A stretch of DNA of 64,000 nucleotides from Sitta carolinensis (lineage: Eukaryota; Chordata; Aves; Passeriformes; Sittidae). Within the stretch, counting starts at the first letter, position 1; each line of letters begins with the position of its first letter. Below the pieces are notes generated by a model that was not told the DNA's origin, made no database searches, and saw only the letters and a list, made by a program, of their open reading frames with translations. Location of the stretch: contig CM063283.1 of the NCBI GenBank assembly GCA_032173965.1, forward strand, positions 115,495,187-115,559,186, in the 5' to 3' direction. This document shows, in pieces, positions 1,355-63,250 of the stretch. The position numbers and the translations under genes are program-made.

Positions 1355-1442
1355 GAGTCCCAGCAGATGCTGGGCAGGCTGATCCCAGAGAAGCAGCTGC
1401 TCAATGACCAGCTCAAGCAAGTCCAGCAGAACAGCTTGCACA
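1355..1442 (+). CDS. ITSN1: ITSN1 exon: coiled coil ([14 protein letters not shown]...)
   Basis: First ITSN1 exon in the window, 88 bp. It encodes a coiled-coil stretch reading [20 protein letters not shown] and ending QQNSLH. The acceptor is a pyrimidine tract ending in CAG at 1352-1354. The donor is GTGAGT at 1443. The exon starts in phase 0 and leaves one base, which joins GG of the next exon to make Arg. The coiled coil mediates oligomerisation and, in the family, SNAP-25 and Eps15 contacts. The donor is the first member of a long array of donor copies. Confidence 0.93.
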
Positions 1443-4400
1443 GTGAGTAGATTTTGGTCATACCTGAGCACAGTGAGTAGATTTTGGGGCATGCCTGAGC
1501 TCAGTGAGCTGATTTTGGTCATACCTGAGCTCAGTGAGCTGATTTTGGTCGTACCTGAGCTCAGTGAGCTGATTTTGGTCATACCTGAGCTCAGTGAGCT
1601 GATTTGGGCCATACCTGAGCTCAGTGAGCGATTTGGGCCATACCTGAGCTCAGTGAGCGATTTTGGTCATACCTGAGCTCAGTGAGCGGATTTTGGTCAT
1701 ACCTGAGCTCAGTGAGCTGATTTGGGCCATACCTGAGCTCAGTGAGTAGATTTTGGGCCATACCTGAGCTCAGTGAGCACATTTTGGGCCATACCTGAGC
1801 TCATTTTGCACAATGAGTAGATTTTGGGCCATGCCTGAGCTCAGTGAGTAGATTTTGGTCATACCTGAGCTCAGTGAGTAGATTTTGGGCCATGCCTGAG
1901 CTCATTTTGCACAGTGAGCAGATTTTGGGCCATACCTGAGCTCATTTTGCACAGTGAGTAGATTTTGGGCCATACCTGAGCTCAGTGAGCACATTTTGGG
2001 CCATACCTGAGCTCATTTTGCACAGTGAGTAGATTTTGGTCGTACCTGAGCTGGGTCAAGCAGGACACATTCCCTGGCTCCAGCATCCCCTGGAATTTGT
2101 GTGTTGCAAGATGCAGATGGGAAAATGTTGCTTTCTGTGCCCTAAACTGTTCCATAGAAGAAAATCCTGACTTTGCAATGTGTTCCAACCCAGGGGATTC
2201 CCTTCTCACCATCAAGAGAGCCTTGGAAGCCAAGGAACTGGCACGGCAGCAGCTCCGGGACCAGCTGGATGAGGTGGAGAAGGAAACCAGATCTAAACTG
2301 CAGGAAATTGATATTTTCAATAATCAGCTGAAGGTAGTCCAGGGCTCATTAAGCCTTTCTCAATGTTCACTTAATTATTTTCTAACCTGATTGTTGGGGA
2401 AAAAAAAATGAACTGAAATGATTGAGAATGTCAGTTTGGGGAGCATTCTCAAATCTGTCTGTTGAGGATTTTATTTAATTTTTGGGGGTTTTTTTAAGAA
2501 AATGCTGCTCAGCTTTCAAATTCAGGGTTTGAATCAATTTAATCTGCACAGTCTCTTCAGGAGGAAATTTGAGCCCTGATTCTGAATCTATGATTGCAAA
2601 AATGAAATTACCAATTTCTGTGCTTTTGCTTCCAAGAAGTGCAGGACAAGGTCAGGAAATCTGCTGGAATCAGGAATTGAAATCTTGAATAAAAGAGACT
2701 TGATTTTTAACTGCCACCCCAAACTGTTATCTGCTGTCTGTGTGCTCCTGCCTGTCCCTGAGTGTAGCTGCCTGTGGTTTGTGCTTTCATGCTTTACTGC
2801 TCAGTCTTTGTTAAAACTGTGATTTTTTTTTGTGTATTTCTGCACCAGCAATGTCAGAGTTCTGCAGAGAGAAGGTGGAAATCAGTCTGTAGTTACAAAC
2901 TTTTATTAGCATTCATTTTTTTCATAAAATATTCCAATGTTCACGTACTTTATCTGCTAATTCCACTGGTGGGTTCTCCTGAAAGCTGACCAAAAATGCT
3001 CAATTTCCTGCAAGGGGTCACAAATTGTGCTACAAGTATTCAGCAGGAAAATCACTGTGACAGAGACATGAATGGAGTTTTTTTAAAAGTTGACCAACTG
3101 GGATTAAATCAAACAATTCAGGATGGAAAGTGGGGTTGAATTTAAGCAACAAATAGCTTGTTTAAATTGGAGTTATTACTAATTACAGGGAAAATGAAAA
3201 GTGAGGCCCTGTTTTAAAATTCAATTATGGATGACTCTCCCAGTCTGAGACAGGGAGGATGGAAGGGGAGAATTTGCTGAGTCAGACACAGAACAAATAA
3301 AATGGGCACAATTTATATTTAAAAGGAAATAGAATGGTCTAATCCTTGCTTAATTAATCCTTGAGGTTTAAACCTCACTTAATTTTTCTTCATCTGTAGC
3401 TTTTGGATGCATCTTAGCATTTTGTGCTTCTTGGGTATTATTTATTGAAAGCAGTCCTTTAAAAGTGATACATTGGACCAAAGGATATTGATTCTAAATT
3501 TATTAATTTAAACCAAAAGATAATTAATTCTTAAAGGATATTAATTCTAAAATTAGTGCCTGTGTTTGGTATGTCAGGATAAAGAATTCCTTCCCAAAAT
3601 CCCTGGATGTAAATCCCTCCAAGCTTAAGGCTCAGTGTGACCCCAGTCTCCAAGGACCAAATTTCCTATAACATGGAAGAACCCAGAATTTCTTGCTGCC
3701 CAAGAGCACACAAGGAATGAGCTCATGTTTCTGAAGTAGTTCTGCTGAGAATTTTTTCCCAGTGCCTGGCAAAAGCAGTGACCCCCTGGGCTGAAGGTGT
3801 GCTGGGGCTGTCAGTGTCAGCAGGGCACTGCTGCTCCCAGCCCCTCTCCACACTCTGCATTTCTCCCTGCCAGTCAGTGGCAGTGCCTGCTCCTCCTGGG
3901 CTGCATCCAGCACTTGCACTCCTTGCCAAAGGTCTCCATGCCCTGCTCAGCAGGACCCAGCTCTCTCTGAGTGAGGAGCCTCCAGAGTTCTGTGCTTCCC
4001 TTGCCCTCAGCAGGTGAGTGTGCAGTGTTTCACAGCCAGTGTTTGTGCTGATGCTGCTGGAGCTGGGCTGGAGCAGGGAGCAGCAGAGCCCAAGGGCCAG
4101 GCAGGGCTGGATCCCAAACAATAACCCCAGGTGGGCAGCAGCAGAGCCCAAGGGCCAGGCAGGAATGGATCCCAAACAATAACCCCAGGTGGGCAGCAGC
4201 AGAGCCCAAGGGCCAGGCAGGAATGGATCCCAAACAATAACCCCAGGTGGGCAGCAGCAGAGCCCAAGGGCCAGGCAGGAATGGATCCCAAACAATAACC
4301 CCAGGTGGGCAGCAGCAGAGCCCAAGGGCCAGGCAGGAATGGATCCCAAACAATAACCCCAGGTGGGCAGCAGCAGAGCCCAAGGGCCAGGCAGGAATGG

Positions 4401-7400
4401 ATCCCAAACAATAACCCCAGGTGGGCAGCAGCAGAGCCCAAGGGCCAGGCAGGAATGGATCCCAAACAATAACCCCAGGTGGGCAGCAGCAGAGCCCAAG
4501 GGCCAGGCAGGAATGGATCCCAAACAATAACCCCAGGTGGGCAGCAGCAGAGCCCGGCTGGGCCCCAGCCCAGGGGAAGCCAAAGGGGGCCCAGAATGGC
4601 CCCGGCCCCCAGGGCCCAGCCTGGGCTCAGTTCTGCTCCAGGGGCACAGGGCAGTTCCTGGGGCAATGCCAGCCCCAGCCCAGGCAGCTCCAGCCTCCTT
4701 GCTTTGCCTTCTCACTGCACCCTTGCCTTTGCTCCTGCGCCTCCAAGTTGTCCTTGGGGCCAGGCTGGAGCAGGAATTGTTTTGTGTCCCTGCTCTGTGA
4801 AAAGAGCTCAGCAGCACTGAATATGAAACTCAAAACTACACACTAAAAGAGCCCAGAATCTAAAAAATATAAAAGCTGAAACTTGAGGCATCAAGGCCAG
4901 CACCAAAACAAATCCAGAGAGAAGAGTTTAGCATTAGATTTTTATCTAATCCTTATTCCTGTGTGAGGCCTGTGCCTTGAATTGTAACTTGGGCACCATT
5001 CTGGTCAGTTATTTGTGTCTTCTGCTTATCTGGAACCTTAAGAGTTTAAGTAAATTGCCTGTCTAGGTCATGATTTTCAGAATTTTTAAAAAGCAGATGC
5101 TTGGGTGGGAAGTATCCCTACACATCACTGTAATCTGTGATTGCAGGAGGGACAGAGGTGGCAGCTCCCTTCCTTTGCCCAGTCCCCCAGGATGGGCTGA
5201 GGGGAGGGATTGTCTGCCAAGCTCAGAGCTTTGGGAGCTGGGCAGTGGGGCAGGAAGGGGATGCTCTGGAAAAGCTCCAGGGAGCACAGAACTGCAGGGA
5301 TCCTCTGGCATCAAGTGCTCTGCTTGTCTCAAGGAGAGAAGATCTGATGGAAACCTTGGCTTGTAATCCCTGAAGCTCCCAAGTGCTGTTGCCTTTCTGT
5401 CCAAAAGGCACAATCTGTCCCAAAGCAGCTCCATTTCTACCACGAAGGTTTTTGTAGCCAGTGCCTTGGCTGTATATAGTGAATATTGCCCTGCTCTAGG
5501 AAATGCTCTCATTCCCATTCAATATTAAAAATGTGGCTCTTGGAACTTCTCAAATCCTCCTTGTTGGTCTGTTTGGATTTAAACACCAGGGTAACAATTC
5601 CTCTGCTTTTAAGGTTTTTTCCTTGTCCTGCACCCCAGAAAGGAGCAAAGCCTTGGGGTGTGTCATGGTTTGACGCTGGCACAAGGCCAGTGCCCCCATG
5701 AAGATATACTGTCCCTGGTGCTTGCTGTGAGATGTGACCAAAGCCAGAGCAAAACAGTTTTTAATTTAGAAACAAAAGGAAAGAAAAACTTTATTTACTT
5801 ACAATAGGTAAAGAGACACACACAGAAGAGGATGAAAACTTTAAAAAACACTCCTCCTCCCCCCCTCCCCAAGTTCTCAACACAGTACAACACAACTAAA
5901 AATTCCCAGTCAAGTTACCACTTTTCAGATAATTAATCTTCAGTCCATTACCACCCTTCTGATAATCAGCACTCAGTTCATCAAGGAGAGATAGGAGTCT
6001 TTCTTGCACCATCTTGTGACCTCTTCCTTCCATGTGCAGTGCTCTCACCACTGTGCATGGACCAGAGCTGTTTCTAGGGTTTCTCTTTTTAAAGATGCTT
6101 TGGTCAGTTCCAAAAAACGACAGCTTCTCAAATTTTGGGACACCAGTCCCCCCCAGTTTCACCCCCTGGGGCCGAGGGGCCTTGAGAACAGAGCTCTTCC
6201 TCTCATCTCTGTTCACACTACTGTCCACTCTTGGCTCCAAGCCAATGCCTCTCCCCAGATGCCGTTTCTGTGTTACAGGAAAGAAATGAGTCCGGCCATG
6301 GCCATACAAGAACAGTCCAGCCAAAGGCCACTCCATCATCTCCTCCCACCTAGGATTCTTTTCAGCATTCTCTGACAATCTTCTACTTGCAAGAACTTTC
6401 ATCACCTTTGCTCAGTTCTCTATCTTCCTTCTTCAGATTCAGGAGGATTAGCATTTATAAAGTTTCCATCATCTACAAAAAGGGTTCAAACCTTGGACTG
6501 TGCCTGCCCAAACTCCCACAGCAAGTTGCCAGCACCTCTCGTGCTGCTCCCTCCTCCCTCCTTGGGCCGTGCTGCCCGGCTGCTGCTATCCAGTTTGCTC
6601 TGCTGGGCAGGGGAGAGCTGTCCTCCCTCAGGGACTGGAACCAAGAGAGAGTTCTCCTGGGAGCCCTCTGCTTTGAACCCCCTGTGTTCTCAGAGGGGAG
6701 CCTTGTCCGCAGTGGCCACACCAGGTGCCAATATTGAAACTTGAGCACTCATTGGTTTGACCACTGAATTCCAAAAAAATCCTCATTTCCTTTTCAAACC
6801 ACCACAGGGTGCCTTTGGAGTTGGAGCCCAGTGGGACATGTCCAGCTGTGTGTGCAGGATGAGTGTGGGGCTGTGCTGAGCAGGCACCTGGAAAAGGCTT
6901 GGCTGCTGAAGTGTTAGCAGGGTTTTGTCCAGCTGCTTTCCAGCAGAACTGGGGGAGATGCTGGCCCTTCCTCCCCAGCCTCCCACCTGCCAAGGCAGTG
7001 GAGCATCTCTGTTGCATGAGTGTTTCAGGCCTGAAATTTCAGAGTTTCTAAACCTCTTTAATTTACTGCAATTCCTTTCCCAGGAAGAACATAAACAACA
7101 AAACTTTGTTCTTGTAACAGTACTCATGTTGTTCATTCTTTCTCTGAGAGAAATTTTCTTTTAATGCCCCTCTAGTTTGGCCAGTGTGGGTGAAGAGCTC
7201 TGCTTCTGGTTCACCAGTCACAGTGGGCTGTAGAAACTGTATAAAAGAACAATCTTTAGAAATGAAGATTCTTCTTCAAGAATGTCATTTTATTCCCTTT
7301 TAATGCCTTTAAAAAAATGTCACTAAAGTCTGTTGTGTGTGTTATCACAACAGTGACACCTGAGATGCTCAGCACATCTTTGTTTCCTGCTGGCTGACCC

Positions 7401-10400
7401 AAAAGGGATGGGTGTGGGATTTTATCATCTCCAAAAATGCTCCATCCAGTGCCAGCACTACAAACTGGGTTTGATTTTCTCAAGGCACAGGAAAATCCTT
7501 TCACAGAACCCAGAGCCAGCACAGCAGCTTGGCTGGGAGGGAATAGTGTGTTAAAATGTCTGTGGGAAACTTAAATGATTATTAAAATATCTCTTGAATT
7601 CCAACTTCCCTGAGAGCTGATTCTCTCTTTATTGCTGCTGAGCTCAGCTTTCACTGAATTTAAAATTGAGGAGCATTAATGAAATAAAACTGAGACCTGG
7701 GCCACAAGGACCAGCTTCCCTTTTGAATCTTTCATCCCTGTATCCACTGAGTTTGAATCACTTCAGTTTGGTTTTTTGTCTCTTACACAATTTTCTCATT
7801 TGGGGCAGTGCATGGGGAGTTTTATCTGAAAACTTCCTGTGGTTTGTAGATTGTGAATTTCTGAAAAAACATCCAGGTATTTCCAACATGAACTGTTTCA
7901 ACTTCACCTGTGCCTTTTTTTTCATGAAAAGACAGCAATTTTTGAAGTGAACTGTTGTCAGTGAAAATCCTCAGTGGTCATAGGTAAATTTTCCCTTTTT
8001 CTACTCTAATGCTGAGGAGTTCAGATGCAAAATTCCAGGTTTATGCAAAGAAATTCCAGATAAAAATTGGATTTGTGTTAATAGGTGTTAATGCAGAGAA
8101 CAAATCTTGAGGAAAATATTATGGTGTTATTATTATTTATATTCTAATTTTACCAGGCAATTGAAGAAAAACTGACTTATATGTGAATGAATATTTTCTG
8201 TACCATGATTCATCCCAAAGACATTCCTTAAGGATTTCAGTCTCCTCTGTATAAAGCAGCCCTGAAGGTTCTTTAGTAAATCAGCATTAATTGGCAAATG
8301 AAGCTGATTGAGAGTTGCTGTTATGAGAGCTCAGAGGGCAGATTTGTGTGTGGAATTTAATAACTGAATTCCATAAACCAACAAACAGAATAAACCAGAA
8401 GTGACTGCTCAGATTGAGCTTGGTCCATTTTTCAGAGTCCCATTTAAAGGTTTTCTTGTTCCTAACCCTTTAATGGATAAAAATAGGAGAACAGGAGGTG
8501 GTTCGTAGCCCCTGGAATGAAGCTGAGCTATCTGCATTTGGCAGGAGTGTGAGTTTGAGAGCTCCCCAAGCACTGTCAGCTGTTGGCCCCTCACAGGGAA
8601 CTCTCTGGGGCCCTCAGGTCTGACTCACAGAGTGGATGTTTACACCCCTTTGCCTTATTTTTAAACCCAGGAGCTGAGAGAAATGCATAATGTGAACCTC
8701 AGAGTGGATGTTTACACCCCTTTGCCTTATTTTTAAACCCAGGAGCTGAGAGAAATCCATAATCTGAACCTCAGAGTGGATGTTTACACCCCTTTGCCTT
8801 ATTTTTAAACCCAGGAGCTGAGAGAAATCCACAATCTGATTCACAGAGTGGATGTTTACACCCCTTTGCCTTATTTTTTTTAATCCAGGAGCTGACAGAA
8901 ATGCATAATGTGAACCTCAGAGTGGATGTTTACACCCCTTTGCCTTTTTTTATAAACCCAGGATCTGAGAGAAATCCACAATCTGATTCACAGAGTGGAT
9001 GTTTACACCTGTTTGCCTTTTTTTAAAATCCAGGAGCTGAGAGAAATCCATAACAAACAGCAGCTCCAGAAGCAGAAGAGTTTGGAAGCTGAGAGGTTGA
9101 AACAGAAGGAACAGGAAAGGAAGACAGTGGAGCTGGAAAAGCAAAAAGAAGCTCAGAGGTAACAAAGTGCTTTAATGGAGCCCTAAATGTAACACCTGGC
9201 ACCTCCTGGAAGATATTCATGTCTACCCAAAACTTCAGGGGTGCAGATGAGGTTTGTGTCCTCTAGTGCCACCCTCTGATGTTTGGGAAGTGATTGCTTG
9301 GACACCAGGGGGAATTTCTTTTTTGTGGCAAGGGTGGGCAGGGCTTGGAACTGCCCAGGGAGGGTGGCAGTGCCCAGCCCTGGAGGGGGCACTGGAGGTG
9401 GCACTCAGGGGGACATGGTGGGCACAGCTGGCACCCCGTGGGCTGGCAGGGCTGTGCCAGCCCCTGGGATTTGGGGATTCCATGAATTAGGTTTTTTCCT
9501 CATGCTGTTTTTCATCAGGAGTTCATGTTGTCTTGGACAAAGTCTTTGTGTCACACCAAGAGTGTGAGGAGCAGCTGCTCCTCAGGCATTTGTCTCTAAT
9601 TCTGAAGAAATTCTGGGGGGGGAATAGGCCGTGGAACAGACTGGAGCACGCTGGGCATCCTTCAGTGGGACAAATTGTTTCCACCAGAGAATATTTATTT
9701 ATTTATTGGTGCCTTGTCCTCTGGTGGAAGGGAAGGACTTGTTACACCTCTGGCAGTTGGGAATGGGAAATATTCCCAATAATTCTCTGGAGTGCTGTGT
9801 AAAACTTGCAAATACTCCTCCTCCTTGCCCCTCAACATGAGGACAAGGATGGCCACATGTTCTCAGTCCTGCCTTTCTCTTTCTGATTTATTTGGCTCTT
9901 TGGAGTCTTACCTTGGCTTGGATCTTTAAGGTCCCTTCAACCCAAACCATGCCACGAGGTTGGGATTTCTGGGACTCATTCCCAGTGCAAGGAGATGCTG
10001 GGGAGTGGTTGATAACTCTAATAAAGTCAGGGCATGGCAAAGCCCTCAAGAGGACCCTTAGCCCTGGAGATGACCTAAAAGCTCTGGTGGCTTTGGTCTG
10101 AGTGGCTCTGACCCCCCCGTTGTCCCCAGGCGGGTCCAGGACAAACCGCGGCCGGAGGAGGAACCGCAGTGGCAAAAAAAACCCCAGGAGGATGACAAGC
10201 AAAGAAGGGAAGAGCTCCCCAAGAAGAAGGAAAGTGAGGATAAAGGGAAGCAGGAGATGCAGGAGAAGCTGAGTAAACTCTTCCAGCCCCACCAGGAGCC
10301 CAACAAGCCTGGCCAGGCGCCGTGGTCCAATGCAGGTAGGGCTCAACAGCAGGGAGTGCTCTGGGACAGCTCAGTTCTCCTTTCCCAGTTAACATGGAAC

Positions 10401-13400
10401 AAGGTGGTGTTCAGGGCTGGATTGGAGTGCTCTGGGACAGCTCAGTTCTCCTTTCCCAGTTAACATGGAACAAGGTGGTGTTCAGGGCTGGATTGGAGTG
10501 CTCTGGGACAGCTCAGTTCTCCTTTCCCAGTTAACATGGAAAAAGGGTGGTGTTCAGGGCTGGATTGGAGTGCTCTGGGACAGCTCAGTTCTCCTTTCCC
10601 ATTTATCATGGAACAAGGTGGTGTTCAGGGCTGGATTGGAGTGCTCTGGGACAGCTCAGTTCTCCTTTCCCATTTATCATGGAACAAGGTGGTGTTCAGG
10701 GCTGGATTGGAGTGCTCTGGGACAGCTCAGTTCTCCTTTCCCATTTATCATGGAACAAGGTGGTGTTCAGGGCTGGATTGGAGTGCTCTGGGACAGCTCA
10801 GTTCTCCTTTCCCAGTTAACATGGAACAAGGTGGTGTTCAGGGCTGGATTGGAGTGCTCTGGGACAGCTCAGTTCTCCTTTCCCAGTTAACATGGAACAA
10901 GGTGGTGTTCAGGGCTGGATTGGAGTGCTCTGGGACAGCTCAGTTCTCCTTTCCCATTTATCATGGAACAAGGTGGTGTTCAGGGCTGGACTGGGAGGCT
11001 TGTTAAAGTAAATAATGCATGGATTGAGCTCCATACTCCACAGATGATTGTTAGGCATCACTGTTCTCCCCCAAAGGCTGAGCAGAAGGCACAGCCCTGA
11101 CACTGCAGGGCAAGGGAAGGGGGGATCTCAGCTGGAAGGGGCTGGATGCAAGATCAAAAATGATTTCTGTCGTTTTTATTTTGCTGTGGGATGCATGCCT
11201 TGAGATTTTTCAGAGTAGGAACAATATGTTGTCCAGTCACCCTTTTCCTTTCCTGCCTTCCTTTGTTCACTGGACCAATGACCTGAAATCTCAGATTTAA
11301 TTCCCCTTTTTGTGCTCTCCACATAGTCACTTTCAGCTGAGAGCTTTTTCCCTGCATTGTATCCTGATTTTTGCCTGTATTGGGAATCCTGCTTCCCTCT
11401 GAAGTGCCTTGGATACACACGAGGGCTATTTGGGAATGTAAAACTGGTTTAAATATTTGTCCAAAGGATTGCATCACTTTTAGGGCTGAATCCTGCCCAG
11501 AGGGGCTGGGGACTCCCAGCTCCTGGTAGTGCCCCAGGCCAGGCTGGACACTGGGGCTGGAGCAGCCTGGGGCAGGGGCAGGGGGGGCTCTGGGTGGGCT
11601 CTGAGCTCCCTCCCAACCCTTCTGTGTTTCTATGATTTTCCCTCTTGTTTAGAGGGAAAAATAATAAAAAACTGGTATTCAAATAATCAACTTTTATGTT
11701 TCCCTTGTGGAAAAAGGGGATAAGATCTTTTTGCAGACCCTGCCAGGTTGGGTGATTCTTGTCTCCACTGCCACCCCATTTCCAAGCGTTTCAGAACCAG
11801 GTGGTTTGATTTGTTCTCTCTGTATCTGTGTGTTTGTTTCCTTTGCTCAGAGAAAGCTCCTCTAACCATTTCTGCTCAGGAGGATGTAAAAATAGTGTAT
11901 TACAGAGCTCTGTATCCTTTTGAATCCAGAAGCCACGATGAGATCACCATCCAGCCTGGAGACATCGTCATGGTGAGCAGGGATTGGGATATTCCCTGGG
12001 AAAACCCTTCAGCTTCTGCCAGGGCTGCTTTCAGTTTTATAGGGCAAGAAAGGAGACTTCAAATCCCAAAAGTTTGGTTGCAATGTGTGGAAAATCATTC
12101 CCAATTTTTCAGGGCTGTGGTCAGTGTGTTGCCTCAGATTCTGAGGCAAGATTTGCTTTTGTCTCTCTAAGTTATAATTCTCTGGTTAATCTGGTTAATC
12201 TCTGCAGGGATTAAGTGGCTATTAATGCTAATTAATCATGAGTGTGTTCTTAACATGCAGAATGAAAATTCCTGGGGGAGTTCTTAAATACTGCTCACTA
12301 GGGAAGCAGAATTGATTTTAAGAGCTCATACATTTTAGCTCAGTTCAGTAAGAGTGGATTTTGGAAAAATACACTTCATAGACTCCCCTAAATTGTAATT
12401 ATTATTAAAAAAAAAAAAAACCCTTCTGGGAAATTGAACCTTTTGGGGTTGGTTTGGCTTTTTACTTATTGGGTGTTTGTGGCCTTGGAATGGGCTTCTG
12501 GAAAATCCCAAGTGGATCCTGGCTGGGTGTCACTGCTGAGGACTCTGAGGTTCTAAAGCTGCAGCAGGAAATGGTGTTGGAGAGGAGACTGGAGGCTGCT
12601 GGCAAGTGCTGGGATGCCTTTTTTTTCCTGGGAAATAAGGGGTAGCCTGGGTTTACAGGTCATTCTGTGGGCAAGAGTGATCCCTGTTAGGCAGACTTGC
12701 TGGGAAAATAACAATTTTCCCCAAGATTGCAATTTTAAGAAGCATTTCACGCATTTCTAAAGAGAGACTTGCAGTGAAAATGACATTTTCCCACAAAATA
12801 TGTGGTTCTAGGCAGTTCTGCACATATTTATCCCTGTTATTGCAAGGAAAATAACATTTTTCCTCAAATATGTGATTCTGAAGAGCGCTGAAATAATTTT
12901 TAAATTGGGATTTGCGGGGAAATAAGATTTTTCCAAAATACACAATTCTAAAGAGCACTGAAATAATTCTTAAATAGGGATTTAAATAGGATATATGATT
13001 CTAAGGCTCACCACACAGATTTTAAATAGAGACTTTGAGACCATCCAAGTCTTGTTATCTGTTGCTTACAGGCTCGATTTTAACCCTCTCAGCCCCAGCA
13101 GGGTGACCCCTCTCTGTTGTGTTTACTGAAGTGATTTTGCCCATAATTAATAATTAATTTCCCATAAATAATTGCTGCCCTGCTGGAAGGCTCAGAGGGT
13201 TGCTCTGGCAGTGCTGGGGTCAGTGCTGAGCTGATTTGCTTTGCAGCCCTGCTTGCCCTGCAGTGAGTGCCACCCCCAGGACCCTGCAGTTCCTTGGGTC
13301 TGACCCCACCAACCTTGGGGTCAAATCAACAACCCCCAGCTCGTTAGCAGAAGGAGCTCAGCCCTCCTGGAGCAGGGCTGGCTTTGGCTGCTGCTCCCTC

Positions 13401-25400: not shown

Positions 25401-28400
25401 TCAGCCATGGAGCTGTTCTGTAGTTACTCCTCAGTCTAATTTCTGCCAGAATCCCCAAGTTTTCAAAGCATCAGTTGACAGGGAGGATGTGGAGGAGGAC
25501 ACTGTTGTTTTCCACAGAGGATTTAGGATTCTGTGGAAACCTTCAGGTCGTTTGATGTTGGCTCTAAGTTTGTAAGGAGGTGAAGAAGTTGAGGGAGGTG
25601 GAAGTGTTGGAGGCAAGAGGACATTTCTGGCCACAGTACAGTTTAGATTTCAGTTTCTGTTTCCCACCTCAGACCCCTTTACTGCAGGACACAGAGCTGC
25701 CAGTGGCCTGGGAGCAAACCAGCAATTATTTAGGAACTGGCTGATTCATCCCTCCCCTCACCCTGTCTGGGTGCAGGGAGTTTCTCAGGAACAACTGCAA
25801 TCCAGCTGTCTGGAGGGATGAAAACTTCTGTTGTTGTTTCAGCTCACCTCCACAGAATTCCCATTCTGTAGGTGTGTGGATTTGCAATCACAAATGGGAT
25901 CTGCTTTGGGATTACAAGTGGGATCTGCTTTGGGATTAAAAGTGGGATCTACTTTGGAATCACAAGTGGGATCTACTTTGGGATTACAAATAGGATCTGC
26001 TTTGGAATTAAAAGTGGGATCTGCTTTGGAATCACAAATGGGATCTGCTTTGGGATTACAAATAGGATCTACTTTGGGATTGCAAGTGGGATCTACTTTG
26101 GATTTGCAAGTGGGATCTGCTTTGGAATTGCAAGTGGGATCTACTTTGGATTTGCAAGTGAGATCTGCTTTGCAATTACAAATGGGATCTACTTTGGGAT
26201 TGCAAGTAGGATCTGCTTTGGAATTAAAAGTGGGATCTACTTTGGAATCACAAGTGGGATCTGCTTTGGGATTACAAATAGGATCTACTTTGGAATTAAA
26301 AGTGGGAACTGCTTTGCAATTACAAATGGGATCTGCTTTGGGATTACAAGTGGGATCTGCTTTGGGATTTGCAGCCCATAAAGGGTTATATAAAAGTCTG
26401 CACTTCTGCATTAACAAATCATCACCACATGCTTGGTGTTTATTCCCAGATGTTTATTGCCATCTAGAATATTGAGGATTTCTGTAAAAACAGAATTTCC
26501 TGTGAGTTTTTGACTCCCATGCTTGTTGAGTGAATCTTTGCAAATCACTTTCATGTACTGGAGGAAGAAACCTGAGTGCTAAACTTGCATCTTGTTCTCC
26601 ATTTCAAGGCTCCCGGAGCAGCTGGGAAAACAGGAAGCTTAGGGAAGAAACCTGGTGAGTCAAATATTGTGACAGCACCTTCTCTCTGTTCTTAAGTGTT
26701 CAATTCAATGGCAAGAGAACCTTTTCCATGAAAATACAGTATGTTTGCTCTTGATCATCTTGGAGTAGTTTGCACTGATGAAAACCATTATAAAATAACT
26801 GGAATAAATGCAGTTAATAAATAATGTAACTGTAATAAAAGAATGCATCCTCTAATCATTCTAGCGTGTCAATCACTGAATAACCTGTAGCTAGAGAATA
26901 AAAATGTGCTTGCTCCAAAGTGAGGGTAAACTTCCTGATGGATTGCTGAGCAGAACAGGGGGAGCCATTCCCCCTTGTCCTGCCTTCCCAAGCCTTGTCC
27001 CTCTCCAGCTTTCCTAGCTGTGAAAGCACAAGACAGGAGGAGGAATTTCTAATTAAATACAGCAGATGCTGGCAGGAGAGTGGAAGGTTTAAGCAGAGAA
27101 AAGCCAGGAGCTGAGTCAGTGCTGGGTGAGGGCAGAGCCAGGGAGTGCTGGGGCTGGGAACAGGCTCTGCTGCTGGAAAGGGCTGGGCTGGGTGGGATTG
27201 GGGACAGGAATTGTTCCCTGGAGGGTGGGCAGGGGCTGGGCTGGAATTGCCAGAGCAGCTGTGGCTGCCCCTGGATCCCTGGCAGTGCCCCAGGCATGGA
27301 TGGACACTGGGGCTGGAGCAGCCTGGGGCAGGGGCAGGGGGGGCTCTGAGCTCCATTCCATTCCAAACCATTCCATGGCTCCATGAATTTGTGTGCTAAT
27401 CCTAGATCGAGGTTTAAAGCACCTTTAAACTCAGCTCCAGCCCTTCCCATCCCCTGCCTGGCTCTCCTGTCCCTGCCTCTCCCTCCTGAGGGAGGTTCTG
27501 CTCTCGTTGATTCCTGTGTCCCCTGCAGGGCCCTTGGATTGTTCCTCATCCTCCTCGTGCTCTTCATCCTCTGCTCCTCATCCCCTGTTCCTCATCCCTC
27601 TGCTCCTCATCCTCCTTGTGCTCCTCATTCCTCTGCTCCTCATCCCGCTGCTCCTCATCCCGCTGCTCCTCATCCCCTGCTCTCATTCCTCTGCTCCTCA
27701 TCCGCTGCTCCTCATCCCCTGCTCCTCATCCCTCTGCTCCTCATCCTCCTTGTGCTCCTCATTCCTCTGCTCCTCATCCCGCTGCTCTCATCCCTCTGCT
27801 CCTCATCCCCCTGCTCCTCATCCCTCTGCTCCTCATCCCTCTGCTCCTCATCCCTCTGCTCCTCATCCCGCTGCTCCTCATCCCGCTGCTCCTCATCCCG
27901 CTGCTCCTCATCCCCCTGCTCCTCATCCCCCTGCTCCTCATCCCCCTGCTCCTCATCCCCCTGCTCCTCATCCGCTGCTCCTCATCCCGCTGCTCCTCAT
28001 CCCGCTGCTCCTCATCCCCCTGCTCCTCATCCCGCTGCTCCTCATCCCCCTGCTCCTCATCCCCCTGCTCCTCATCCCGCTGCTCCTCATCCCGCTGCTC
28101 CTCATCCCTCTGCTCCTCATCCCCCTGCTCCTCATCCCGCTGCTCCTCATCCCGCTGCTCCTCATCCCTCTGCTCCTCATCCCCCTGCTCCTCATCCCGC
28201 TGCTCCTCATCCCGCTGCTCCTCATCCCCTGCTCCTCATCCCCCTGCTCCTCATCCCGCTGCTCCTCATCCCGCTGCTCCTCATCCCGCTGCTCCTCATC
28301 CCGCTGCTCCTCATCCCTCTGCTCCTCATCCCGCTGCTCCTCATCCCTCTGCTCCTCATCCCCCTGCTCCTCATCCCGCTGCTCCTCATCCCGCTGCTCC

Positions 28401-31400
28401 TCATCCCTCTGCTCCTCATCCCTCTGCTCCTCATCCCGCTGCTCCTCATCCCTCTGCTCCTCATCCCCCTGCTCCTCATCCCTCTGCTCCTCATCCCTCT
28501 GCTCCTCATCCCTCTGCTCCTCATCCCGCTGCTCCTCATCCCGCTGCTCCTCATCCCGCTGCTCCTCATCCCGCTGCTCCTCATCCCTCTGCTCCTCATC
28601 CTCCTCGTGCTGCTCCTTTGCATCTCAAACATTTCTCTGATCATTTTTCATGGTCCTTTCCTTCTAACTTTCCCCTCAGTCGTTTGCTCGTTTCCATGCT
28701 GGCTCTCAGCTCTCTTGTACCTTGCCTGCCCCTGCCCTCCCTGAGTTCCCTCCTCCCAGCTGTGTGGGTCCTGTGCCTGGGCACTGAGTGCCTAAGGTCC
28801 TATCCCCATCCCAAACCATCCCAAAGCATCCCAAACTATCCCTGGTGCCCAGGGAAGGGGCAGCAGCAGCACCAACCCCCCCTGTGTGTGTTAAACTGGG
28901 TGTGTTAAACCCAGCCCAGGGCTAAGGGAGCCCCCAGAACTCCTGGAACCCAGAGCTGGGTTAAGCCAGAGCAAACCCCAATCCCTCCCTGGGACTGGGA
29001 GCTCCTCTCCTGGGACAGGGATTGCCAGGGAAATCCTCTTTGCTGCTTTCTGGAAAACATTCATTTTTGGCTCAGGTGGTGAAAAATTTCCTGCCAGCCT
29101 TAATTTGCACCTCTTGGTGCAGCTTCATTATTTTGTCATGGCTGTGTCTCTTCTCAGGGAGCTCAGTGCAAAGATGCATTTACTGCATTTGAAGAGCTGT
29201 ACAGTTCCTGTTATTATTACTATTACTATTATTATGCTCTATTTCATTTTTTATCTCCTCCCATAGAGCTGCTGCACCTCTGGTTTCTGATTTATTTCTT
29301 CCTGTAGTCTTCTGAAGCTCTCATTTATTTTACAATTACTACATGTATTCATGGAAATACATAAATCCATGGTAATTTTATGGCAAGAAATAACACGGTG
29401 TTACAGCAGAATTAATGTTGGATAAAAATGTGTTCGGATTTTTTTTTCAAATTAATCTTTTCTTTCCTCCTCTTCTTCAACAGAAATTGCCCAAGTTATT
29501 GCCTCTTACACAGCAACAGGCCCAGAACAGCTGACCCTTGCTCCTGGCCAGTTGATTCTCATCAGAAAGAAGAATCCAGGTGGTTGGTGGGAAGGAGAGC
29601 TCCAAGTGAGTTCCTTTTTTTTTTTTTTTTTTACCTAGTAAAATCCAATTTAAAATAAATAAATAAATAAATAAATAAATTTTAAAAAATTAAATTAAAA
29701 AATATTAATTTTTAAAATAAATTAAAAATTAATTAAAAATTAATTAAAAATTAAAAATAAAATTAAATTTAAAAATAAATTTAAAATACATTTAAAAATA
29801 AAAATAAATAAATTAAAAAAAAAGGTTTTTAGTAGTTCAAAATGCTGCCTGTGTGGGTGATGACTAAATTTGACCCCGTTCCCAATAAACCCCTTCCCAG
29901 GAACAGCCCCACCTTGCTGGCTTTGGGGGAACCCGGGAGAGAGCAGCAGAGCTGAGCAGGGCGGGGAGCTCCGGGCTGGGCTGCCGTGCCCCTGCCGCGG
30001 CTGACAGTGGAATTGGCCAATGTGCTGCTCCTGGAGGAGGCTCCGTGTGCTTGGGGCTAGCAGGAGCTCTGAGACGAGCAGTGCTGCTGCTTTGTCTGGG
30101 CAGTGCACCCCTCGCATTAATTCAGGCCTTTTCACACTTGGCACCCGCCCTTTTGGCCTTTCCTCCTGGTGCTTTTTACTCTTTCCTGGAGGGATCCTCT
30201 TCCAGGATTCCTCTGGGCTTTTCTCTCACTTAACCTTGAGGCTGTTGGTAACTTTTAAATTACTTTTAAGTAACCTTTTAAGCTTTTTAAGTAACTTTTA
30301 AGGCTCCATTAAATGGATTTTAAGAGAGAAAATTAACTTGTCTGGGCAAGAGCTGCCACAGTTATCACTGAGCAGCTGCTGTGAGGCTCTGAAACAGTGA
30401 AATGTTGGGTTTGGCTGTGAACCTCTCATTTATTGTACAATTACCACATCTATTCATGGAAATACATAAATCCATGATAATTTTATGGCAAGAAATAACA
30501 CAGTCTTATAGCAGAATTAAACTGACTCCTATGCAAGTGTAGATAATGTCTTACATGTCTTTTTAACATATAAAAGCAATGTCAGGGTTTTACAGTTGGG
30601 TTTTATTTTGTTGGCAATCCCTGACTTCTTTTTATTCTCCTTTTTCACACTTGGGGGTCAGAGTGAAGGGGAAATAAGGCAAATATTTTAAGCATTACAT
30701 TGTTGGTTTAATGCAGTGTAATTAAATATTTATTAAATATATAGTGTATTAAGTAAATTATCTAATTAGACTTTAGATAAAGTATTTTCTTTTTTAGTAA
30801 AGATTTAGACTGGGAAGAAAGTAGTAAATCCTTTAGATGACTTTTTTTCCACCAAAGCTAACAATCTGTTTTTAAGAGGCAAAATTCTCCTTGCCCAAAA
30901 TGTCAACCTCATTCTAACACAAAAAGGGAACAAACAGTTAAAATAATTCTTGATAGAGAGTTGGAAGCTGGGATTCAAAATTCTGGAAGAACTTTTCTTA
31001 CTGTATGGAATTTTTATGGATCTGATTTGCAGTGGATGTTGGATTTGGGGAAATAACAGAAAAGTTAAAAAAGTTAAAAGTTAAAGTTTCCTGCTTTGGT
31101 GACACAAAGGAAAAAAAAGCTTGGATATGTTACTGTAAAAGCAAAAAGGAAAAAGAAAAGAGGAAATTTGGATTCTTAATCTATTTCAAGTGTCACACCC
31201 TGGGGATCTAATGTAACTAATGTTTAAATGTAACTTCACGAGCGATCATTTCACCCGAAATACCAACGAGGTCCTGTGTGGGCACTGCACTGGGCACTGC
31301 TGGCACAGAGAGAGCACGGGCTCCCTCCCTGTGCCCTGTGCCCGGCCTGGGCTGGGCTGAGCCCCGAGCTCTGCCTGCCCGGGCCGGGCTCAGCCCCGAG

Positions 31401-34400
31401 CTCTGCCTGCCCGGGCCGGGCTCAGCCCCGAGCTCTGCCTGCCCGGGCTGGGCTCAGCCCCGAGCTCTGCCTGCCCGGGCCGGGCTGAGCCCCGAGCTCT
31501 GCCTGCCCGGGCCGGGCTGAGCCCCGAGCTCTGCCTGCCCGGGCCGGGCTGAGCCCCGAGCTCTGCCTGCCCGGGCCGGGCTGAGCCCCGAGCTCTGCCT
31601 GCCCGGGCCGGGCTCAGCCCCGAGCTCTGCCTGCCCGGGCCGGGCTCAGCCCCGAGCTCTGCCTGCCCGGGCCGGGCTGAGCCCCGAGCTCTGCCTGCCC
31701 GGGCCGGGCTCAGCCCCGAGCTCTGCCTGCCCGGGCCGGGCTCAGCCCCGAGCTCTGCCTGCCCGGGCTGGGCTCAGCCCCGAGCTCTGCCTGCCCGGGC
31801 TGGGCTGAGCCCCGAGCTCTGCCTGCCCGGGCTGGGCTCAGCCCCGAGCTCTGCCTGCCCGGGCCGGGCTCGGCCCCGAGCTCTGCCTGCCCGGGCTGGA
31901 CCGGGCTCAGCCCCGAGCTCTGCCTGCCCGGCCTGGACCGGGCTCAGCCCCGAGCTCTGCCTGCCCAGCCTGGGCCGGGCTCAGCCCCGAGCTCTGCCTG
32001 CCCAGCCTGGACCGGGCTCAGCCCCGAGCTCTGCCTGCCCAGCCTGGACCGAGCTCAGCCCGAGCTCTGCTGCCCGGGCGGCTCGGCCCGAGCTCTGCCT
32101 GCCCGGCCGGCTCGCCCGAGCTCTGCCTGCCCAGCTGGGGCACCCCACCCCGGGCTCGGCCCCGAGCTCTGCTGCCCGGCACCCGAGGTGCCGGCGGCTC
32201 GGCCCCGAGCTCTGCCTGCCCCGGGCCGGCTCAGCCCCGAGCTCTGCCTGCCCGGGCCGGCTCGGCCCCGAGCTCTGCCTGCCCGGGCCGGGCTGAGCCC
32301 CGAGCTCTGCCTGCCCGGGCCGGGCTCAGCCCCGAGCTCTGCCTGCCCGGGCCGGGCTCAGCCCCGAGCTCTGCCTGCCCGGGCTCGGCTCAGCCCCGAG
32401 CTCTGCCTGCCCGGGCCGGGCTGAGCCCCGAGTTCTGCTGCCTGCCCGAGCTCGGCTCAGCCCGAGCTCTGCCTGCCGGCCGGGTGAGCCCCGAGCTCTG
32501 CCTGCCCGGGCTCGGGCTCAGCCCCGAGCTCTGCCTGCCCGGGCCGGCTACCCCGAGCTCTGCCTGCCCGCTGCTCAGCCCCGAGCTCTGCCTGCCCGCT
32601 GGACGGCTAGCCCCGAGCTCTGCCTGCCCGGGCTGAGGCTCGGGCTCAGCCAGCCCCGAGCTCGCCTGCCAGCTGCCCGGCTTGCCTCCGGGGCTCAGCC
32701 CCGAGCTCTGCCTGCCCGGGCCGGGCTCAGCCCCCAGCTCTGCCTGCCCGGGCCGGGCTCAGCCCCAGCTCTGCCTGCCCGGGCTCGGCTCAGCCGCGCT
32801 GTCTCCGCAGGCGCGTGGCAAGAAGCGCCAGATCGGCTGGTTCCCCGCCAACTACGTCAAGCTGCTGAGCCCTGGCACCAGCAAGGGCACCCCCACCGAG
32901 CTGCCCCGGCCTGCTGCCCCCTCAGGTGAGCCTTGGTGCCCCCTCAGGTGAGCGTTGGTGCCCCCCAGGTGAGCCCTGCTGTCCCCAGGTGAGCCCTGCC
33001 CACATCCTGGGCCTCTGCTGGGCCTGTTCAGGGAGGGCTGGGGTGCTCCAGAGCCTCAGGGGTGTTCCTGCATGCCCTAAAGCATCCCAATCCCAAAGCA
33101 TCCCATCCCATCCCATTGATCCCATCCCATCCCTACAGTGACTGTGGGACAGGTGCTCTGGGATGTTCCTCCATCCCATCCCATCGATCCCATCCCATTC
33201 CATTCCACCCCATCCATGCCCTGGCTGTGGGATAGGAGCTCTGGAATATTCCTTCATCTCATCCCCATCCCACTGATCCCACCCCATCCCATCCCATCCC
33301 ATTGATCCCATTCCACCCCATCCAATCCCATCCCATCCCTGCAGCGACTGCGGAACAGGAGTTCTGGGTTGTTCCCATTGATCCCATCCCACCCCATCCC
33401 TGGCTGGGACAGGAGCTCTGGGATGTTCCTCCATCCCCACCCCATCCCACTGATCCCATTCAACCCATCCATCCATTCCATCCCACCCATTCCATTCCAT
33501 CCCATCCCATCAATCCCACCCCATCCCAGGCTGTGCCAGGAGCTGGAGGGGCTCAGGGGATGCAGGGCTGGCCCGGGGGCTCCTCTCCTGCAGCCCCCTG
33601 CCCGGGGGCTCCCCAGGTGCCACCCATCATCCTGGCTCTGGAACTGCTGCTGGCTGGTACAGAAACCCAGAGAATGCCTTCCCCAAAGCCTCCTGGAGTT
33701 CAGGTGTAGAATGGGAACTCAGCAGTGAGGCACCACCTTTTACAAGGGAATATGATGAGATTTTTTTTAATATATTTTCGACATTTTTTCAGGTTGGACA
33801 ATCTGAGACTTTCCCCACATGCTAAATTTTACAGAATAAAATTTTAGCAGTTATTGTATTGCCTGCAGAACATCAAAATCTTAATTAAACTGTAATTAAA
33901 AAGAAGAGAGAAGCTGTTTGGCAAATTGAAATCAGCTGCTGGCTTGGTACGAGGATGAAAATAAAAGCAAATTTTAGGATTAATCCACTGGGGAGAAGCT
34001 GCCAGCAAGGCTCATTAAATAGAAGTCTGGTGGGAAAACCCAGAAGCCCTGTGGCCTGGCAAAGAGAGAACAGCAGAGAAATAAGAGGGGATTATTTATT
34101 TAACTAAACAGTCCTGCTGCTTCAGAGAATTCAGGGCTGCTTTGTCCCGAGTGAGCAGAGCCAGCTGTACTCTGAGCCTGGGGAATTCCACTGCAGGAAA
34201 GAGAAAACCCCTGCAGGAACCAGTGCTGGGTGCCAGCAGAGCAGCTTTTTTGGCCAGTTCTGTTCCTTTTCTCTGGTGTTTTCCAAGATTTTTTAGTTCT
34301 CAAAACCTCACTGGGACAACAAGGACATCACCCTTGGCTTTCTTGTGGATTATTTCAGCTTCCAAGAGTGGAAGTTGAAACATGTCCCAGATTTTCCTGT

Positions 34401-37400
34401 CTGCTGAGCAGTCCTGGGGGGTCCCAGGGGGAAGGTGTCCCTGTCCTGGGCACTGCATGGGCTTTGAGGTCCCTTCCCACCCAAGCCCTGCTGGGATCCA
34501 TGAAACTCTTTGGGGTTTTTAAACCCCTGGAGTCAGTTTGGGGAGGGCTGAGCTGAGCCCCAGGATGGGCTCTGTGGGAATTATTAAAGGTGAGAAGGCT
34601 TTCAGAAAGGTGTAAAAGAAGGCCTTAGAAACAGAACAGAACAGACAATTTGGAATTAAGCTGCAGTTGTAAAGTTTGAAAGTAGAAGAGTTACATTAAG
34701 CGTAATAAGGAAAGACATGAAACAAGAGCTTGAGTCTTAAGCTTAGCTAGAATAAACATTAAAACTACAGAAAAATCTGCTTAGTAAGAGAGGTTGAAGT
34801 CACTGCAGTGTCCTGGAGCTGTCCTGAGCCATGGGCAGTGTCCAGAGCTGACCTCTGCACGTGGGCAGGGTTAGGCTGGGGATTAGGGCTGGGTTAGGCT
34901 GGGGTTTAGGGCTGGGTTAGGCTGGGGATTAGGGCTGGGTTAGGCTGGGGTTTAGGGCTGGGGTTTATGGCAAGGTTCTTCCCCTGAGGGTGCTGGCACT
35001 GCCCAGGGAAGGGGCACGGCCCCGAGCTCCAGGACAGCGCTCAGGCTGTCCCGGGGGTCGGTGGAGCAGGGCAGGGTTGGCTCAGGCTGTCCCGGGGGTC
35101 GGTGGAGCAGGGCAGGGTTGGCTCAGGCTGTCCCGGGGGTCGGTGGAGCAGGGCAGGGTTGGCTCAGGCTGTCCCGGGGGTCGGTGGAGCAGGGCAGGGT
35201 TGGCTCAGGCTGTCCCGGGGGTCGGTGGAGCAGGGCAGGGTTGGCTCAGGCTGTCCCGGGGGGTCAGGCAGGGCTGGCTCAGGCTGTCCCGGGGGTCGGT
35301 GGAGCAGGGCAGGGTTGGCTCAGGCTGTCCCGGAGGATGGTGGGGTCAGGCAGGGTTGGCTCAGGCTGTCCCGGGGGGTCAGGCAGGGTTGGCTCAGGCT
35401 GTCCCGGGTGGTTGGGGGAGCAGGGCAGGGCTGGCTCAGGCTGTCCCGGGAGGTTTGGGGATCAGGGCAGGGCTGGCTCAGGCTGTCCCGGGAGGTTTGG
35501 GGATCAGGGCAGGGCTGGCTCAGGCTGTCCCGGGAGGATGGTGGGGTCAGGGCAGGGCTGGCTCAGGCTGTCCCGGAGGATGGTGGGGTCAGGGCAGGGC
35601 TGGCTCAGGCTGTCCCGGGGGTCGGTGGGGTCAGGCAGGGTTGTCTCAGGCTGTCCCGGGAGGTTGGTGGGGTCAGGCAGGGTTGGCTCAGGCTGTCCCG
35701 GGTGGTTGGGGGAGCAGGGCAGGGCTGGCTCAGGCTGTCCCGGGAGGTTTGGGGATCAGGGCAGGGCTGGCTCAGGCTGTCCCGGGAGGTTTGGGGATCA
35801 GGGCAGGGCTGGCTCAGGCTGTCCCGGGAGGTTTGGGGATCAGGGCAGGGTTGTCTCAGGCTGTCCCGGAGGATGGTGGGGTCAGGCAGGGTTGTCTCAG
35901 GCTGTCCCGGGAGGTTTGGGGATCAGGGCAGGGCTGGCTCAGACTGTCCCGGGAGGTTTGGGGATCAGGGCAGGGTTGTCTCAGGCTGTCCCGGGAAGTT
36001 GGGGGAGCAGGGCAGGGCTGGCTCAGGCTGTCCCGGGGGTCGGTGGAGCAGGGCAGGGCTGGTTCAGGCTGTCCCGGGAGGTTGGTGGGGTCAGGCAGGG
36101 TTGGCTCAGGCTGTCCCGGGTGGTTGGTGGGGTCAGGCAGGGTTGGCTCAGGCTGTCCCGGGAGGATGGTGGGGTCAGGGCAGGGCTGGCTCAGGCTGTC
36201 CCGGGGGTCGGTGGGGTCAGGGCAGGGCTGGTTCAGGCTGTCCCGGGAGGTTGGTGGGGTCAGGCAGGGTTGTCTCAGGCTGTCCCGGGTGGCGCAGCCC
36301 CCAGGTGAGCCCTGTCCCCCGCAGTGTGCCAGGTGATCGGCATGTACGACTACAACGCGCAGAACGACGACGAGCTGGCCTTCAGCAAGGGCCAGATCAT
36401 CACCGTGCTCAGCAGGGAGGACCCCGACTGGTGGAAGGGCGAGGTCAACGGCCACGTGGGACTCTTCCCCTCCAACTACGTGAAGCTGACCACGGACACG
36501 GACCCGAGCCAGCAGTGTGAGTGTGTGCGGGCAATCGGGCGGGGAACAGCGGCAGTGTCAGAGTGCCACGGGAAACCGGGCTGGGACCCTGCCCGGCAGT
36601 GTGAGTGGGCAACCGGGCTGGGACCCTGCCCGGCAGTGTGAGTGGGCTGGGGACCCCCGGCAGTGTGAGTGGGCTGGGGACCCCCCGGCAGTGTGAGTGG
36701 GCTGGGGACCCCCCGGCAGTGTGAGTGAGCCGGGGACCCCCGGCAGTGTGAGTGAGCAGGGAACCCCCCGGCAGTGTGAGTGAGCAGGGAACCCCCCGGC
36801 AGTGTGAGTGAGCAGGGAACCCCCGGCAGTGTGAGTGGGCCGGGGACCCCCCGGCAGTGTGAGTGAGCCGGGGACCCCCCGGCAGTGTGAGTGAGCAGGG
36901 AACCCCCCGGCAGTGTGAGTGAGCAGGGAACCCCCCAGCAGTGTGAGTGAGCAGGGAACCCCCCGGCAGTGTGAGTGAGCCGGGGACCCCGGCAGTGTGA
37001 GTGAGCAGGGAACCCCCCGGCAGTGTGAGTGAGCAGGGAACCCCCGGCAGTGTGAGTGGGCCGGGGACCCCCCGGCAGTGTGAGTGAGCAGGGAACCCCC
37101 CGGCAGTGTGAGTGAGCCGGGGACCCCCGGCAGTGTGAGTGAGCCGGGGACCCCCGGCAGTGTGAGTGAGCCACGGGCAGGCGGGGCCGGGCCACAGGCT
37201 GGGGCTGGGCAGGAGCCACAGGCAGCGCTGGGGCAGGACAGCACTGGGGCCACAGGCTGCACTGGGGCCAGGCAGCCCCAGGACCCCCTGCAGGTGCCAC
37301 AGGCTGCACTGGGCCCTGCACAGGTGACACAGGCACCCCCGAGGCCACAGGCAGCACTGGGGCCACAAGGAGCCACATGCAGCACAGGTAGCACTGGGAC

Positions 37401-62119: not shown

Positions 62120-62515
62120 GCACCGTGGCGACCGTGCACAGCCCCACCGTGGCACCCACCCACCCTCACAGCCTCACCCTGTCACCTCACCTGCCCTCAC
62201 AGCCCCACCACGGCACCCACCCACCCTCACAGCCCCACCACGGCACCCACCCACCCTCACAGCCCCACCACGGCACCCACCCACCCTCACAGCACCCACC
62301 CACGGCCACCCACCCCCCCTCACAGCCCCACCTTGGTGAATGTGCACAGCCCCACAATGGCACCTCACCTGCCCTCACAGCCTACTCACCTGCTCTCACA
62401 GTCTCACCGTGTCACCTCACCTGCCCTCACAGCCCACGTTCACCACCGTGTCACCTCACCTGCCCTCACAGCCCCACCGTGTCACCTCGCCTGCCCTCAC
62501 AGCCCTCTTCCCACC
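62120..62515 (+). repeat. CCTCACAGCCCCACC minisatellite
   Basis: Four copies of about 29 bp (CCCTCACAGCCCCACCACGG plus CACCCACCCA), then looser copies with CCCTCACAGCCCCACCGTGT and CACCTCACCTG. It abuts the CpG island. Confidence 0.92.
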
Positions 62516-62519
62516 TGCC

Positions 62520-62920
62520 CCACTCAGGGCTGTGGCGGCGCTCGGGGCGCCCCCCGCGGCGCTCGGGCACAAGTGGGACCCTCTCCCCTCTCCCTCTCCC
62601 CTCTCCCCTCTCCCTCTCCCCTCTCCCCTCTCCCCTCTCCCCGTCTCTCCCTGCCCGCTCCCCCGACCCTCCCGCCTTGCGCTCTCCTCTCCGTCCCTCC
62701 CCGCTCCTCCTCCTCTCCCCCGCTCCGTCCTTGAGCGCGGCTCGCCCGCGGCCCGTCCCTCCCCTTCCTGCCGGGCCTCCCTCCCCTTCCTGCCGGGCCC
62801 GTTCCCGGCGCTCCGCGGCCCGGCCGGCGGCTCCAGGTGAGGCGGGGGCGGCCCGGGGCCGGTGCGGGCCCAGAGCAGCGGGAGGGCGGGAGCGGGCCCG
62901 GCTCCGGGAGATCCATCCCC
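62520..62920 (+). promoter_or_regulatory. CpG-island promoter and likely first exon of the next gene
   Basis: Dense CG dinucleotides, C-rich pyrimidine tracts (CCCTCTCC repeats) and no TATA box, typical of a housekeeping promoter. CTCCAG|GTGAGG at 62831-62842 is a near-perfect donor, so a non-coding first exon ending at 62836 is likely on the + strand. No ATG-initiated coding exon was recognised around it. In mammals ATP5PO and then MRPS6/SLC5A3 follow ITSN1, but none can be confirmed in the 1.1 kb that remains. Confidence 0.5.
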
Positions 62921-63250
62921 GCTGCATCCCGCTGCATCCCGCTGCATCCCGCTCCATCCCCGCTCCGTCCCCGCTCCATCCCCGCTCTATCCCCGCTCCA
63001 TCCCCGCTCCATCCCCGCTCCGTCCCCGCTCCGTCCCCGATCCATCCCCGATCCGTCCCCGCTCCGTCCCCGCTCCGTCCCCGCTCCATCCCCGCTCCAT
63101 CCCCGCTCTATCCCCGCTCCATCCCGCTCCATCCCGCTCCGTCCCCGCTCCGTCCCCGCTCCATCCCGATCCATCCCCGCTCCGTCCCCGATCCATCCCC
63201 GCTCCATCCCGATCCATCCCCGCTCCGTCCCCGCTCCATCCCCGCTGCCC
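62915..63250 (+). repeat. 10-11-bp repeat (CCCCGCTCCAT / CCCCGCTCCGT)
   Basis: About 30 copies. It starts 80 bp after the presumed first-exon donor at 62837, again close to a 5' splice site. It makes false ORFs on both strands. Confidence 0.93.

Follow-up and report, generated by a model that had tools for sequence, protein, structure and literature searches.

Why should the splice sites of a gene stand in line with copies of themselves? The question is raised by ITSN1 in the passerine bird Sitta carolinensis, where a window of 64,000 nucleotides (nt) from contig CM063283.1, the whole stretch of DNA that we analysed, holds minisatellites at one exon-intron border after another. Our answer is that short segments spanning or adjoining these borders were probably duplicated in tandem and then expanded within the introns, a process recently described in chicken as exon or sequence stuttering.

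Twenty-five coding exons of ITSN1 lie on the plus strand of the window, between position 1355 and a stop codon at 57785-57787. Exons were located by tblastn with an ITSN1 probe and then bounded at canonical splice sites, giving 25 AG acceptors and 24 GT donors, all of them canonical; our tests used 48 of these 49 sites, the ones that delimit the 24 introns. The gene is identified by matches to intersectin-1 chains in the PDB and by Pfam SH3, RhoGEF and PH domains. Among the protein matches listed, the top ones are passerine ITSN1 proteins (Zosterops, Chamaea, Motacilla and Passer) with up to 97% identity. The longest contigs listed for ITSN1 in relatives measure 115-127 Mb (Motacilla, Chamaea, Acridotheres and Passer domesticus), the small contigs of other listed relatives being uninformative; for the chicken ITSN1 record the longest contig is 196 Mb.

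Several of the ITSN1 minisatellites contain splice sites. Tandem Repeats Finder (TRF) returned 134 rows for the window. They cover 23.5% of intron bases (median per intron 13.7%), with arrays in 14 of the 24 introns, and take in just 2, 20 and 16 exon bases in three of the 25 exons. Three arrays physically cover a splice junction: the donor at 1443, the acceptor at 9032-9033 and the donor at 32926. The first starts two bases inside its exon; 17 further GTGAG motifs lie downstream, and TTGCACA of the exon end is present in some copies. At the acceptor, each 72-base-pair (bp) unit comprises a T-rich tract and an AG, followed by roughly 20 nt from the start of exon 3, and the real acceptor is preceded by five decoys. 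Past the donor at 32926 come three further CAG/GTGAGC donors (the slash marks the splice border). The original prediction had counted a fourth array with the splice signal in its unit, at donor 36517; this array is called from 36570, 54 bp downstream, with a degenerate copy in between. Five of six other arrays that had been placed beside junctions are indeed there (10353, 32795, 36289, 47070 and 51801), and the sixth, at 62915, lies outside ITSN1 at a different locus. An AT-rich array at 29648 (42-43 bp from a junction), absent from that earlier list, also qualifies.

The repeated junctions are specific to their own introns. For each donor we took a 14-nt junction word and counted its copies, allowing at most two mismatches, both in the intron that follows the donor and in the remaining 23; for acceptors the word was 23 nt long, at most five mismatches were accepted, and the own intron was again compared with the others. 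Donor 1443 has eight copies in its own intron and one elsewhere, donor 32926 has four and none, and donor 36517 has 21 and three. The other 21 of the 24 donors have no copy in their own intron. Likewise, the word at acceptor 9034 has five copies in its own intron against none elsewhere, and the other 23 of the 24 acceptors have none in theirs. The units of the different arrays are unrelated to one another, as first proposed, and their sequence is that of their surroundings, so the process is local. The words of these four junctions recur in the own intron and hardly elsewhere, which supports the view that several exon-intron borders underwent local duplication.

The exon itself contributes to the units. 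Positions 1-20 of exon 3 recur in intron 2 at 8671, 8743, 8815, 8889 and 8962, and the best of these copies is identical at 20 of 20 positions. In four of the five the source begins at distance 0 from the exon border, and the fifth match starts three bases in; an 11-nt copy of the end of exon 13 also has its source at distance 0. Exon 3 is most likely the source of the intron 2 copies, and not the reverse, because its ELREIHN coding stretch stands, by pattern match, in 102 of the 120 ITSN1 proteins listed for birds and reptiles (these are from other species, and many are labelled predicted isoforms). A comparison of exon-derived with intron-derived identity within the 72-bp units (0.913 against 0.777 and 0.569) was ungapped and we set it aside, since it is skewed by indels in the T tract.

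Do the arrays also lie at junctions more often than random placement would bring about? We merged TRF rows with a score of at least 100 and a period of at least 10 into 27 arrays within ITSN1 introns (a looser set, with a score of at least 50, holds 40), and called an array near-junction if it overlaps a junction or ends within 55 bp of one. Ten of the 27 arrays are near-junction, against 1.6-3.2 expected under eight null settings, all of them confined to ITSN1. Uniform placement at final array lengths gave null means of 1.74-3.24 (p 0.0005, the lowest value that 2000 shuffles can give), and nulls in which each array is collapsed to a seed of two units gave means of 1.64-3.18 (p 0.00005-0.00035). 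Other score cut-offs at 55 bp yielded p values of 0.0005-0.0025, and the same 27 arrays at cuts of 20, 30, 40 and 100 bp yielded 0.0005-0.046. Removal of the AT-rich array at 29648 leaves 9 of 26 (p 0.0002-0.00065). The excess of near-junction arrays holds in this gene. Guanine-cytosine (GC) content does not explain it, because that of intron sequence outside arrays is similar near junctions and far from them (0.49 at 0-100 bp, 0.46-0.51 farther away).

We think it likely that these features are the outcome of exon and intron sequence stuttering. Hron et al. (2026; PMC12954441) describe stuttering in chicken as an imperfect tandem expansion in introns, in which some expansions copy the edge of an exon together with its splice donor or acceptor. 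In ITSN1, short DNA segments across or beside exon-intron borders would have been duplicated in tandem, and the arrays would then have grown locally in the introns by replication slippage, unequal exchange or gene conversion. A 219-bp period accompanies the 72-bp unit, and the first array has periods of 71 and 111 bp; such higher-order periods suggest that blocks were copied and not single units only, as expected of unequal exchange or gene conversion. Such duplication may be nearly neutral, with the coding exon unharmed, because the copy with the authentic splice site would stay attached to it. A duplication that spans a junction keeps one exon copy with a working site and may be tolerated for this reason, unlike a duplication inside an exon. 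Three marks of stuttering recur here: part of a coding exon repeated in direct tandem orientation within the adjacent intron (exon 3 in intron 2), a source no more than one base from the exon border (four of the five exon 3 copies and the exon 13 end), and repeat-rich introns with several clusters in one gene. Length polymorphism, which Hron et al. (PMC12954441) treat as a main feature of stuttering, may be expected of these arrays too.

A number of points weigh against this explanation. We studied one gene, picked because of its striking look, and the 55-bp cut was chosen post hoc, after the largest distance seen (54 bp). With all 40 arrays, exon overlap allowed and cuts of 20 and 30 bp, p reaches only 0.05-0.14. 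Introns 12-14 hold five of the ten near-junction arrays, four of these in the cluster at 31345-37893; without these introns 5 of 16 arrays are near-junction, with p 0.022 for placement in any intron and 0.066 for placement in the own intron. Twenty nt of exon are present in only one of the four junction arrays, and the donor arrays carry about 4-11 nt. Moreover, no match on the plus strand passes the filter of Hron et al. (PMC12954441), which requires blastn-short matches of at least 20 nt and a bit score of at least 42.1, a genome-wide noise threshold; our best score is 40.1. There are three proximal plus-strand matches of at least 20 nt, and that best proximal score compares with 30.2 for the best distal match in the real introns and with shuffled-intron maxima, over five shuffles, of 26.3 proximal and 28.2 overall. 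Finally, the assembly appears not to be free of errors: exon 21 (54528-54648) lacks one base near 54600, where two relatives read HISHIDRVYT; this 1-bp deletion shifts the ITSN1 frame and is probably an assembly or sequencing indel.

Some of these points speak for chance. Songbird introns may be rich in minisatellites, of which some land at junctions, and arrays that start in the last bases of an exon may survive as harmless. Window and cut were, after all, chosen after looking, p is 0.02-0.07 without introns 12-14, and 17 of the 27 arrays are over 55 bp away from any junction. The junction-overlapping class taken alone, with exon overlap allowed, numbers 3 of 27 against 0.8-1.0 expected (p 0.04-0.07; 0.08-0.14 at other score cut-offs). 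However, across all introns all four collapsed-seed settings give p of at most 0.00035 at 55 bp, and without the three overlapping arrays 7 of 24 are still near-junction (p about 0.003). Nor does chance placement explain the copies of a junction within its own array, unless duplication begins there. We regard chance as unlikely.

Could the arrays instead have been created by long-read consensus assembly? The broken frame of exon 21 points that way. However, array copies differ from one another by substitutions and indels, and unit lengths are mixed, unlike the re-use of one read segment. An assembly artefact is, in our judgement, highly improbable.

A further possibility is that junctions are preferred points of breakage or re-replication, through R-loops or G-quadruplexes (G4), and that arrays are seeded there. 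Hron et al. (PMC12954441) raise G4 and replication stress as speculation, and two near-junction arrays are rich in G4 motifs, with 11 and 16. Nevertheless, G4 motifs occur in 3 of the 10 near-junction arrays and in 5 of the 17 others, mean GC is 0.580 in the former and 0.581 in the latter, and the GC skew of the near-junction arrays is of mixed sign. The three arrays that cover a junction hold 0, 0 and 1 G4 motif. Since neither G4 motifs nor GC separate the near-junction arrays from the others, the link to G-quadruplexes suggested in the original prediction gains nothing here, and we consider seeding by breakage quite unlikely.

The decoys stand in line with the true splice sites, as had been claimed, and their likeness to these sites varies. 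We scored sites with a crude position matrix built from the 24 donors and 24 acceptors of ITSN1 itself, leaving one out each time. All three decoys at 32926 and all 21 at 36517 equal the real donor in score, which agrees with the claim that the decoys are identical; at 1443 it fails, with 3 of 17 reaching the score of the real donor. The real exon 3 acceptor scores 8.1; one of its decoys surpasses it with 11.5, and four fall slightly short of it (7.2-7.8). Use of a decoy is predicted to bring a premature stop in every case at 1443 (17 of 17) and 32926 (3 of 3), and in all but one at 36517 (20 of 21) and at 9034 (4 of 5). The frame stays open, as far as checked, for the decoy acceptor with its exon start at 8962 (+72 nt) and for the donor decoy at 36601 (+84 nt; followed to the frameshifted exon).

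Do the decoys then serve a selected function, regulating ITSN1 splicing as the human IFI6 minisatellite supplies alternative donors? Many score close to the real site, and those at 8962 and 36601 would keep an open frame. Against this stand the premature stops predicted for all the others, and the 120 listed proteins of other species, in which a pattern search for the exon 3 decoy product gave no match. In 97 of these proteins exons 2 and 3 are joined directly, 18 have no pattern match, and 5 galliform proteins have a different insert; neither a repeated LREIHN within 40 residues nor the VDVYT of the unit is present in any of the 120. We think a selected function very unlikely.

The exons concerned and the near-junction arrays are listed below.

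Table 1. ITSN1 exons and near-junction tandem arrays in the window.
Feature	Position	Strand	Details
ITSN1 exon no. 1 of window	1355..1442	+	donor GTGAGTAG at 1443
Minisatellite over donor 1443	1441-2052	+	30/31/40-bp units; TRF
72-bp array over acceptor 9032-9033	8619-9053	+	219-bp higher-order period; TRF
ITSN1 exon 3 (ELREIHN...)	9034..9158	+	most likely source of exonic part of 72-bp unit
71-bp array	10353..10994	+	start 17-18 bp past exon 4 donor; TRF
AT-rich low-complexity array	29648..29820	+	42-43 bp past exon 12 end (donor 29606)
32/96-bp GC-rich array	31345..32795	+	end 15-16 bp short of exon 13 acceptor; TRF
ITSN1 exon 13	32811..32925	+	arrays on both flanks
21/22-bp array over donor 32926	32910-32999	+	TRF
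42-bp array	35039..36289	+	end 35-36 bp short of exon 14 acceptor; 11 G4 motifs, + strand
ITSN1 exon 14	36325..36516	+	donor 36517
28-bp array past donor 36517	36570..37171	+	21 AGT/GTGAGT decoy donors
17/35/52-bp array	47070..47451	+	50-51 bp past exon 15 end (donor 47020); TRF
19-bp array	51801..52408	+	38-39 bp past exon 19 end (donor 51763); 16 G4 motifs, - strand

In the cluster at 31345-37893, 4636 of 6549 bp lie in tandem arrays, and exons 13 and 14 remain as islands. Ahead of exon 14, the stretch at 36298-36314 (CCCCCAGGTGAGCCCTG) is similar to the units with decoy donors past exon 13, which lie 3.3 kb away at about 32960-32999. Towards its end, exon 13 (32811-32925) reads LPRPAAPS or similar in many listed passerines and LPKSTALPS in most other listed birds; these passerines have one codon less, directly beside the donor minisatellite. 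Zosterops, Chamaea and Lamprotornis have a longer exon 4 (coiled-coil region, 10130-10335 here).

Downstream of ITSN1, a GC-rich region at 62137-63246 has several arrays and a donor-like CCAG/GTGAGG at 62837, and is perhaps the start of another gene. Sequences of ATP5PO and MRPS6 gave no convincing match downstream of ITSN1 (lowest E-value 2.0). Three patterns for the CR1 tail motif, used as a bird marker, had no match either. When genome and viral contig collections were scanned with ITSN1 protein of Chamaea, 63 and 94 places fitted the pattern, with no confirmed relative among them.

What would these findings mean beyond ITSN1? It is possible, although we hold it doubtful, that splice junctions are preferred seeds of minisatellites in songbirds, and that stuttering reaches beyond dot microchromosomes and affects many of the introns in a macrochromosomal gene with moderately high GC, independently of G4, with decoys that compete with the true splice sites. 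If so, stuttering would extend from the dot chromosomes of chicken to a songbird gene that lies on large chromosomes in relatives, and the tightness of its link to dot chromosomes and extreme GC would be put in question. Were junction seeding general, it would provide a natural test of how the spliceosome chooses among identical tandem sites and would help to explain the quick change of intron length in birds; gene prediction and short-read assembly may then misplace exon ends in such genes.

Three other known systems resemble the arrays of ITSN1 in part. In the human IFI6 (6-16) minisatellite, two downstream repeat units are reported to serve as donors (PMC4526556, citing Turri et al. 1995). 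As here, the donor lies inside a minisatellite unit and several donors stand in a row past one exon; however, IFI6 is one human locus whose donors are cited as used, whereas ITSN1 has several such junctions with putative donors and an acceptor. Tandem duplication across an intron-exon boundary, as described in PMC4974935, also duplicates splice signals and leads to intron gain, one duplication having made a new intron; here there are many copies and no new intron is shown. Internal tandem repeats with units of 30 bp on average alter the exon-intron structure of human duplicated genes (PMC2812944). They are likewise minisatellites that change exon-intron structure, but in human genes within segmental duplications, and half of the repeats lie in coding sequence.

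The closest likeness is to exon stuttering. The original prediction knew of no named system, yet Hron et al. (PMC12954441) had named this one; the word ITSN1 is absent from the main text of that article, and our search for exon or sequence stuttering in the literature from 2015 on found no report besides it. In chicken and here, the tandem expansions in bird introns are imperfect and span tens to hundreds of bp; some copy an exon edge with its splice site, and in both birds the exons are intact and the origin is local. The chicken cases lie mainly on dot microchromosomes: of 236 introns, 190 are on these, 10 on other microchromosomes and 36 on macrochromosomes, and repeat medians (TRF and RepeatMasker) are 7-93% on dot chromosomes and near zero elsewhere (PMC12954441), beside which the ITSN1 introns have a TRF median of 13.7%. 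Our case is a songbird gene listed on contigs of about 115-127 Mb in relatives. Moreover, the exonic parts span 20-187 bp in chicken and about 4-20 bp here. ITSN1 is probably a new instance of a recently named phenomenon and not an unnamed system; what it adds is a songbird, a gene on such large contigs in relatives, several junctions within one gene and exonic parts that are mostly very short.

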